A stretch of 37,525 nucleotides of DNA, taken from Fidelibacterota bacterium (GTDB taxonomy: Bacteria > Fidelibacterota > Marinisomatia > Marinisomatales > TCS55). A program made the translations under genes and the position numbers. Where the stretch lies: assembly GCA_018674655.1 (NCBI GenBank), contig JABGZQ010000056.1:1-37525 (forward strand), read 5' to 3'. Below are positions 5,925 to 15,490 of the stretch, one piece after another (within the stretch, counting starts at the first letter, position 1; each line of letters opens with the position of its first letter). Below the pieces are notes generated by a model, which worked only from the letters and a program-made list of their open reading frames with translations, searched no databases and was not told the DNA's origin.

Positions 5925-5963
5925 AACGGCCGTCCTTTTGTTAAAGGGCGGCCGTTTTTTTTT
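5925..5963 (+). terminator. Intrinsic terminator between cyclase gene and carA
   Basis: AACGGCCG (5925-5932) pairs with CGGCCGTT (5949-5956), extended by TCCTTT/AAAGGG (one G-U pair) to a 14-bp stem with a 4-base loop, followed by a run of nine T (5955-5963). It lies 68 bases after the cyclase stop and 45 bases before carA. Confidence 0.92.
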
Positions 5964-12896: not shown

Positions 12897-12965
12897 ATGT
12901 TAGACAATCAACGTAGGAATAGAGTAGAACGACGCCGTCCCAATGAATGGGAGGGACATCGGTAG
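12897..12965 (+). CDS. Arginine-rich leader peptide of argGH attenuator
   Basis: A 22-codon ORF from ATG 12897 to TAG 12963-12965. Arg occupies residues 6, 7, 9, 12, 13, 14 and 22: seven of 22, with one pair and one triplet, coded by CGT, AGG, AGA, CGA, CGC, CGT and CGG. It begins MLDNQRRNRVERRRP. It lies between carB and argG and is followed by an intrinsic terminator 18 bases before argG, exactly where a regulatory peptide sensing charged tRNA-Arg would be placed. Codons 18-20 contain the strand that can pair with the terminator's 5' arm. No SD precedes it. It is judged functional as a translated regulatory element rather than as a protein product. Confidence 0.85.
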   Translation: MLDNQRRNRVERRRPNEWEGHR

Positions 12966-13033
12966 CGCTTGTCGTTAAGTCATTAAAAAAGATTTAAAAA
13001 TAAAGCCCTCCGGATGTTCCGGGGGGCTTTTTG
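12928..13033 (+). promoter_or_regulatory. Arginine-responsive transcription attenuator of argGH
   Basis: Four competing segments can be drawn. Protector (1:2): GTCCC 12937-12941 with GGGAC 12953-12957, closed by GCC/GGT and AACGAC 12928-12933 with GTCGTT 12971-12976. Antiterminator (2:3): GGAGGG 12950-12955 with CCCTCC 13006-13011. Terminator (3:4): 13002-13014 with 13018-13030. A ribosome stalled at the Arg triplet (12930-12938) covers segment 1 and frees segment 2 for the antiterminator. A ribosome reaching the stop at 12963 covers segment 2 and lets the terminator form. This reproduces trp/his-type logic. Pairings were read by eye, without energy calculation. Confidence 0.82.
13002..13033 (+). 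terminator. Intrinsic terminator in argGH leader
   Basis: AAAGCCCTCCGGA (13002-13014) pairs with TCCGGGGGGCTTT (13018-13030) in a 13-bp stem (one G-U pair) with a 3-base loop and a short T tract (13028-13032). It ends 18 bases before argG, too close to be only the carB terminator, and its 5' arm is the target of the antiterminator strand. Confidence 0.9.
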
Positions 13034-13050: not shown

Positions 13051-14313
13051 ATGAAAAATAAAAAAATAATACTGGCCTACAGTGGAGGACTTGATACCTC
13101 TATTATTTTAAAATGGCTGGTGAACAAAGGATATGATGTTATCTGCTTTATTGGTGATGTGGGGCAGAAAGATGATTTTAAAGCGGCAGAATCAAAAGCA
13201 TTGGATTTAGGTGCGTCAAAGGTCCATGTGAAAAACCTTCAAAAGGAATTTGTTACGGACTACATATTCCCGGCACTTCAAGGCAACGCACTTTACGAAG
13301 GGCGATATTTATTAGGGACATCCCTGGCTCGGCCCGTACTGGCAAAAGCTCAGATTAAAATTGCTCATGAAGAGGGAGCTACGATTGTATCTCATGGATC
13401 TACGGGGAAAGGAAACGACCAAGTCCGATTTGAGTTGGCCTATTATGCTTTAGATCCAAATATTCAAGTATTCGCCCCTTGGAAGGATATTGAATTTTTA
13501 GAACAGTTTAAGGGCCGGAATGATTTACTTACCTATGCGGATGAGTGGAATATTTCTGTGACAGCAACAAAAAAAATGCCATATAGTGAAGACGAAAATC
13601 TCATGCATATCAGCCATGAAGCGGGTGTATTAGAGGATCCATCTGCCCGCCCGGATGCATCTGTATTTAGCATGACCAATGGGATTAGCGATGCACCGGG
13701 AAAAGAGACATTATTGGAAATTGAATTCGAAAATGGAATGCCGACACAGGTAAAAAACTTGGATGATGGAACGATAAAAATCGATAGTCTAGAAATGTTT
13801 TTATATCTGAATGAAATGGGAAGTCTCCATGGTATTGGTCGAGTGGATATGGTGGAAAACAGATTTATTGGTATCAAATCCAGAGGTGTTTATGAAACAC
13901 CCGGGGCTACCATCCTCTGGGAAGCACATAGGGATCTGGAAGGGGTTGCCATGGATAAAGAAGTGATGCATATCAGAGATATGTTAATTCCGAAGTTTGG
14001 AGAATTGATATATAATGGGTTCTGGTTTTCTCCGGAAATGGATTTTCTGTTGACATCAATCAATAAAAGCCAAGAGGCTGTAGATGGCACGGTGCGGGTG
14101 GCACTATTAAAAGGGAATGTGATATCTATCGGGAGGGAATCACCCACATCATTGTATGATCAAGATATGTCCAGCATGGATATAGAAGGCGGATTTGACG
14201 CAACGGATTCTCAAGGATTCATCAATATTAATGCCATTCGACTCAAAGCACATAATCTGGTATTGCACAGAAGAAATCCATATAAATGGAGAAAGGAATC
14301 AAGTGATGAGTAA
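13051..14313 (+). CDS. argG: Argininosuccinate synthase
   Basis: A 420-residue enzyme joining citrulline and aspartate with ATP to argininosuccinate, the penultimate step of arginine synthesis. The N-terminal PP-loop SGGLDTS is at residues 11-17, with [19 protein letters not shown] (citrulline/aspartate-binding region) and IEFENGMP in the second domain. Length is normal. ATG 13051 is preceded by AAAGGAAAAGG, a good SD with short spacing. It overlaps argH by eight bases. Expression is probably controlled by the arginine leader peptide and terminator immediately upstream. Confidence 0.97.
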
Positions 14314-15490
14314 ACTTTGGGATAAGGGTGTCGATCTTGATAAAGCAGTGGAAGCATTTACGGTGGGAAAAGATCCTGAATTAGATAATGTTTTAATTCC
14401 TTATGATTGCAAGGCATCCATTGCCCACGCCCGGATGTTGGGTGAAATGGGATACCTTGAAAATAATGAAGTTGAAAAATTGGTGATGGAACTTGAAAAT
14501 ATTATCACCTTTCACAGAGAGGATAATTTTACCATAAAGGTATCCCAAGAAGATTGCCATACAGCCATTGAAGAATATTTGGTTGAGCAATTAGGGGATG
14601 TAGGTAAAAAAATTCATACGGCTCGATCTCGAAATGACCAAGTCCTAACTGCCCTCCGGCTCTATTATAAAGAAGCATTACAAGAAATAATTGATCTGGG
14701 TGAAAGCTGGATAAAAGTCTTGGAGAAATTTGGAGAAGAGAATTATGATGTTTCTTTTCCCGGCTATACTCATATGCAAAAAGCGATGCCCTCTTCAATG
14801 GCCATGTGGGCAGGTGCTTATGTCGATGGAATGAAAGACGATTTATCCATGCTTAAATCAGTTGCAAAACTGATTGACCAATCGCCCTTAGGTTCGGCTG
14901 CCGGGTATGGCGTGCCCATTAAAATTGATAAAGAAATGACAGCAAAAGAAATGGGATTCGATCGGGTTCAAAACAATCCTATTTACTGCCAGCTAAGTCG
15001 TGGAAAATTCGAATTATCTATTTTGCATAGTTTGAGCCAGATTATGTTGACTATTAATCGTTTGGCTTCAGATTTGATTTTATACTCCATGACTGAGTTT
15101 GGGTATATCTCTCTACCGGAAGAATTCTGTACGGGCAGTTCAATCATGCCCCAAAAGAAAAATCCCGATGTGCTGGAGCTATTACGGGGAAGTTATCACA
15201 TCATTTCTGGGTATGAAACCCAGGTGAAAGGATTAACGGCCAATCTCATTTCCGGCTATAACAGAGATATACAACTATCCAAAGAACCTATCATGCAGGG
15301 GATAAACTTGGGGATTGATTGTTTTAAAATCAGTGCGGCTGTTATTGAAGCATTAAAGGTGAATAAAGATATTTGTGACGCTGCCATGACAGATGAACTT
15401 TTTGAAACAGAAAAAGCATATAAACTTGTTGAAAAAGGGATCCCATTTCGGGAAGCATATCGGCAAGTGGCAGATGCCATCAAAAAGTAA
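14306..15490 (+). CDS. argH: Argininosuccinate lyase, short form
   Basis: Argininosuccinate lyase releases arginine and fumarate. The start is placed at ATG 14306, eight bases inside argG, after GAAAGGA; the protein then begins [21 protein letters not shown], as in homologues, whereas the frame upstream is argG sequence in another phase. Fumarase/aspartase superfamily marks: [34 protein letters not shown] and the signature [12 protein letters not shown] with the catalytic Ser near 278-279. At 394 residues it is about 60 shorter than E. coli ArgH, ending after [15 protein letters not shown] where others carry a further helical C-terminal segment. The stop abuts the convergent aroQ stop. Confidence 0.95.

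Follow-up and report, generated by a model that had tools for sequence, protein, structure and literature searches.

A predicted arginine-codon transcription attenuator before argGH in Candidatus Marinimicrobia

Arginine synthesis is a textbook case of repression by a DNA-binding protein, and the attenuation of amino-acid operons by translated leaders (trp, his, leu, thr, ilv, phe) is classical. The stretch of DNA analysed here, 37,525 nucleotides long and referred to below as the window, raises the question of whether arginine genes can also be placed under the second kind of control. An earlier note on this DNA had proposed ribosome-mediated attenuation of argGH. That proposal is supported by conservation, by complementarity and by folding, and it is from these that we infer the function.

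The leader between carB and argG

The window belongs to a Candidatus Marinimicrobia genome of 2.13 Mb (90.8% complete). It carries carA, then three more genes, among them an ABC transporter pair, and then carB; 195 nt separate carB from argG, and argH comes after argG. The argininosuccinate synthase gene argG (13051..14313, + strand), which matches NCBIfam NF001770 and TIGR00032 above cut-off, is the proposed first controlled gene. The argininosuccinate lyase gene argH (+ strand; TIGR00838 above cut-off) runs from a putative start at 14252 to 15490, and the longest form of its ORF begins at 14195.

The Arg-rich ORF that had been reported between carB and argG, with seven Arg including a triplet, is confirmed at 12897..12965 on the + strand. 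Its 22 codons encode MLDNQRRNRVERRRPNEWEGHR, followed by a stop, and seven of them are Arg codons (CGT AGG AGA CGA CGC CGT CGG). The triplet CGA CGC CGT at codons 12-14 (12930..12938, +) is the proposed site of ribosome stalling. On both strands of the window, this is the sole small ORF with at least seven Arg at 28% or more of its residues. When the gap was resampled from a Markov model, however, an ORF of at most 36 amino acids with at least seven Arg arose in 151 of 20,000 resamples (0.75%), and therefore the Arg-rich composition alone is only moderate evidence. The decisive evidence for the leader ORF is instead its conservation across species. An in-frame upstream extension of the window's ORF is broken by stops in most relatives. 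Counting against the attenuator, no clear Shine-Dalgarno sequence precedes the leader ATG in the window.

Downstream of the ORF lies an intrinsic terminator (segments 3:4; 13002..13030, +) of 13 pairs with a T-rich tail, which occupies an equivalent position in all compared leaders. The earlier note had placed it correctly upstream of argG, but its end is 20 nt from the argG ATG at 13051, not 18. The 171-nt leader folds far better than its shuffles (z = -5.9), and the terminator is its strongest helix.

Two further segments can pair in alternative ways. Segment 1 (TCCCA; 12938..12942, +) is the 5' half of a protector hairpin whose other half is TGGGA at 12948-12952, and a 28-nt piece of the leader folds into this hairpin at -11.5 kcal/mol. 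Beside the triplet, a hairpin recurs in relatives with changed bases (TCCAA/TTGGA, CTCTAA/TTGGAG). The additional AACGAC/GTCGTT stem proposed earlier is confined to the window species, and we have dropped it as not conserved. Segment 2 (TGGGAGGGACATC; 12948..12960, +) forms both the 3' half of the protector and the 5' half of the antiterminator. No other part of the leader complements the terminator's 5' arm as well, and it overlaps the final leader codons, as had been described.

The alternative partner of segment 2 is segment 3 (13002..13020, +), which takes in the terminator loop and the arm 5' of it and offers either CCCTCC (13006-13011) or GATGTTCC (13013-13020). The antiterminator as first drawn, GGAGGG (12950-12955) with CCCTCC, is indeed complementary, but the window species prefers a longer, overlapping pairing of GGGACATC (12953-12960) with GATGTTCC. 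For the 73-nt antiterminator segment, the folding energy is -22.6 kcal/mol (z = -3.1). Against the attenuator, the window's own leader stands out only modestly from shuffles in its complementarity (p = 0.12).

These elements suggest the following scheme. If charged Arg-tRNA were scarce, a ribosome would stall on the Arg triplet and cover segment 1; segment 2 would then be free to pair with segment 3, the terminator would be blocked, and argGH would be transcribed. If Arg-tRNA were ample, the ribosome would reach the leader stop codon and cover segment 2, so that the terminator would form and transcription would end before argG. That is, from the sequences and the folding models we infer that the leader ORF is translated, that ribosomes stall in vivo at its Arg codons, and that read-through rises in arginine shortage.

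The energy folding that the earlier note had recommended agrees with switching controlled by a ribosome. For each position of the ribosome, we masked the RNA as far as 12 nt from the A-site codon, counted from its first base, and we folded the RNA transcribed by the time the terminator loop emerges. Among 13 Marinimicrobia leaders treated in this way in silico, the antiterminator pairing is 0.74-0.93 when the A site lies on the clustered Arg codons. It drops over the codons after the Arg cluster, and with the ribosome at the stop codon it is at most 0.04 in 11 of the 13 leaders; the other two, L026 and L008, retain 0.26 and 0.31, respectively. The modelled footprint geometry is that of the trp and his attenuators. 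With no ribosome present, the antiterminator is still predicted in the window's leader (0.75); this counts against the attenuator, whose scheme does not account for an off state in untranslated RNA. In family f1, the hairpin that immediately follows the Arg triplet (TCCAA/TTGGA, with variants) might sequester segment 2 in the absence of a nearby ribosome; because the window's ribosome-free fold favours the antiterminator, this role of the protector is hypothetical.

Conservation within the genus and across the phylum

We compared the six genomes of the genus in which the region 5' of argG is assembled. The comparison, which the earlier note had suggested as a check for Arg-codon enrichment, shows that the Arg codons are conserved. 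All six leaders contain, in the equivalent place, an ORF of 21-22 codons with exactly seven Arg, followed by a terminator. Codons 12-14 vary among CGA, CGC and CGT in their third positions, synonymously, so that each is Arg in every species. Elsewhere the residues move: codon 5 is Gln in the window species and Arg in the other members, and codon 7 is Arg in the window species and Asn in the others. Over codons 5-14 the N/S ratio is 0.31. Among the leaders compared, L009 carries one additional base, after the triplet and ahead of segment 2, that changes the frame of the peptide's end; despite this change GGAGGGAC is kept, and a stop follows.

Across the phylum, argG is preceded in four further genera by divergent leaders that combine a run of Arg codons with a terminator and a segment complementary to it. 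Their peptides are MKIITRNHAIERRRSIIFGGT (family f1, genus g3), VTILRNNKKLSRRTLNILEGVR (f1, g6), MVERRRQVRRSRTPRQNWRFRGIL (f10, g21) and, for example, MTRHMNLTIIRRRRPSLEGTGV (f30, g83). We tested 15 leaders from several lineages for complementarity. In all 15, the stretch that best complements the 5' arm of the terminator falls between the last clustered Arg codon and a point just past the stop; for the seven divergent leaders, the Fisher combined p-value is 1.3e-8. Against the attenuator, L007 shows little complementarity when the 5' arm is taken by itself (p = 0.71).

The paired sequences themselves differ between lineages. The end of the ORF and the terminator arm match as GGAGGG/CCCTCC in f1, as GGAACCGG/CCGGTTCC in f30 and, with one mismatch, as AGGTTCCGCGG/CCCCGGAACTT in g21. 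Antiterminator complementarity is therefore maintained by changes on both sides, which answers the earlier call for compensatory changes. The MAFFT columns misaligned L008 and L009, and a column-wise table of pairs is left out of the evidence.

A terminator without an Arg-rich ORF in relatives had been named in advance as an observation that would speak against attenuation. It occurs in one genus only, the AT-rich g17 of f10 (L091, L094), where, beside a persisting terminator and complementary segment, the ORF is rich in Lys (MGIILNQLKRKKNSKKK in L094) and may be a leader that has decayed or been re-specified.

In L008, and in L027, L029 and L030 among the four f30 leaders, the neighbouring gene upstream is divergently oriented. 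In f30, moreover, sigma-70-like promoters (for example TTGCAC-18-TATAAT) lie no more than tens of bases away from where the leader begins. Together, these arrangements imply that the terminator acts on the leader's own transcript. In the f30 leaders L025, L027, L029 and L030, elements resembling a -10 box stand very near the leader ATG, and their position suggests that these peptides may be translated from nearly leaderless RNA.

It is important to weigh these observations against other accounts of the locus. The best of these supposes that the sensor is the sequence of the nascent Arg-rich peptide and not the charging of tRNA: the peptide, with free arginine as its ligand, would itself stall the ribosome, as in the fungal arginine attenuator peptide or TnaC. 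Part of the peptide is in fact conserved in the genus (RRNNRQNRRRSN..EGHR). Between lineages, however, only the Arg run is common, and L009 preserves the RNA although its peptide ends in a different frame. Moreover, a stall at the triplet under high arginine would give read-through in excess, which is the wrong sense for a biosynthetic gene, and we consider this account improbable.

Still less probable is another translation-linked route, in which ribosome pausing leads to Rho-dependent termination or to mRNA decay. The Salmonella speF leader orf34 uses consecutive Arg codons in just this manner (PMC6386406), but here a strong intrinsic terminator and a mutually exclusive antiterminator are conserved. 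Least credible of all is that a chance Arg-rich ORF stands beside a terminator that simply closes the carB operon: although the window's terminator does sit 3' of carB, and the resamples yield comparable ORFs, this is contradicted by the conservation of the Arg codons and of the alternative pairing, and by the recurrence of the arrangement where the upstream gene is divergent.

We conclude that the locus is very probably a ribosome-mediated transcription attenuator of argGH that senses the charging of Arg-tRNA, as judged from sequence comparison and modelled folds. This reading draws its support from the conserved Arg codons, alternative pairings and arrangement behind divergent genes, as well as from the failure to detect ArgR, to which we now turn.

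ArgR and other leaders

The search for argR that the earlier note had called for found none: neither PF01316 nor PF02863 has a match in the 90.8% complete genome or in the genus, and no ArgR was found in the family. A weak ArgR match in genome G026 reads as a Fur-like protein and was set aside. In the phylum as a whole, ArgR is present in 23 of 245 genomes, all of them in families f23, f27 and f29; no ArgR is detected in the lineages that carry the Arg leaders. The match adjoins argG in 22 of the 23, and in the remaining genome the two are on separate contigs. The ArgR gene stands directly upstream of argG in these families (for example in L031, L034 and L036), and none of their scanned argG regions contains a leader with a terminator. 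Thus, the repressor gene and the attenuator share one place, since ArgR lies next to argG in some families and the leader lies there in others. The exchange is not universal, because some lineages that lack ArgR have argG with no leader either (for example L010, L011, L019 and L024), and this counts against the attenuator. For argG, then, a single phylum offers a natural comparison of control modes: some lineages have a repressor gene beside it, and others apparently an RNA switch.

Other arginine genes gave no second case. Before carA there is a strong terminator-like hairpin (5925-5956, + strand of the window, about 50 nt 5' of the gene) with no Arg-rich ORF, and an Arg leader was rejected there; the hairpin might mark where the gene upstream ends, or it might belong to a further attenuator. 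A leader before argF was likewise rejected, as argF sits behind hslU and the leader is absent. In the 13 genomes of genus g1, there is no match for ArgJ and none above cut-off for ArgC, and argG is undetected in seven. The early arginine pathway of this genus may be missing or unusual, or else the MAGs are incomplete.

The window also contains a leader for a different pathway. On the - strand, an ORF encoding MNKENYYSLYRFFSREGVL and a stop (23452-23393), rich in Phe and Tyr codons, precedes the prephenate dehydratase gene pheA, and its terminator (23360-23335, -) precedes a cluster of pheA, a tyrA-like gene and a DAHP synthase gene. The sequence GGGGTTT of this leader can pair with AAACCCC of its terminator, in the same layout as the Arg leader. 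Leaders rich in Phe and Tyr, with terminators, precede pheA in genera g1, g5, g6 and g8 of the family. These leaders support a general use of leader attenuation in these bacteria; Marinimicrobia appear to apply it to Phe/Tyr as well as to arginine.

Outside the phylum, a MAG labelled Thermotogaceae (L052) has an Arg-triplet leader ending in NIRRRLKGRWVPIGT and a stop, at about 2803-2960, with argG at 2998. It combines a site resembling a Shine-Dalgarno sequence, a promoter-like sequence and a terminator, followed by argG-argH-argC-argJ, and no ArgR was found in that genome. It is a tentative idea, which we rate a little short of evenly balanced, that bacterial lineages without ArgR, beyond Marinimicrobia too, have repeatedly put Arg leader attenuation in its place at argG.

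Comparison with known systems

Among known controls of arginine genes, ArgR/AhrC acts on the same pathway, and its gene lies just 5' of argG in other Marinimicrobia; it differs in being a DNA-binding protein, and one not found in the window's genome, genus or family. The fungal arginine attenuator peptide (the arg-2/CPA1 uORF) stalls translation in eukaryotes through the peptide itself. It resembles the present leader as a short upstream ORF set over arginine synthesis, but it governs translation rather than transcription termination.

In Salmonella, the speF leader ORF orf34 (SpeFL) contains consecutive Arg codons that sense arginine (PMC6386406), as the Marinimicrobia leader is predicted to do. 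It controls ornithine decarboxylase through Rho, exposure of a ribosome-binding site and RNase G, and its conserved core is HIRRT (PMC6386406). Here, by contrast, the downstream gene is argG, the pathway is arginine synthesis and the terminator is intrinsic, and HIRRT is absent from the window's peptide.

No Rfam leader, riboswitch or T-box family matches the window at gathering score, and in the open-access literature we found no earlier report of a bacterial Arg-codon attenuator on arginine synthesis. We therefore regard the arginine specificity as new and the mechanism as known.

The closest relatives of this leader are attenuators of the trpL/hisL type, which likewise set a short ORF, with cognate codons in a run, before a biosynthetic gene for the same amino acid, together with antiterminator and terminator segments and a protector, which in the present leader is putative. 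Several parts correspond in detail. The ORF is conserved and rich in the cognate codon, with seven Arg in 21-22 codons in six species and Arg runs in four further genera; an intrinsic terminator separates it from the first structural gene in all compared leaders; the antiterminator, exclusive with the terminator, draws its 5' half from the ORF's end in 15 of 15; and in the footprint folding, a ribosome at the control codons allows the antiterminator, while one at the stop prevents it. What differs here is the specificity for arginine, the controlled genes argGH and the host, Candidatus Marinimicrobia. Arginine thus appears to join the amino acids that are sensed by leader attenuation before their own biosynthetic genes.
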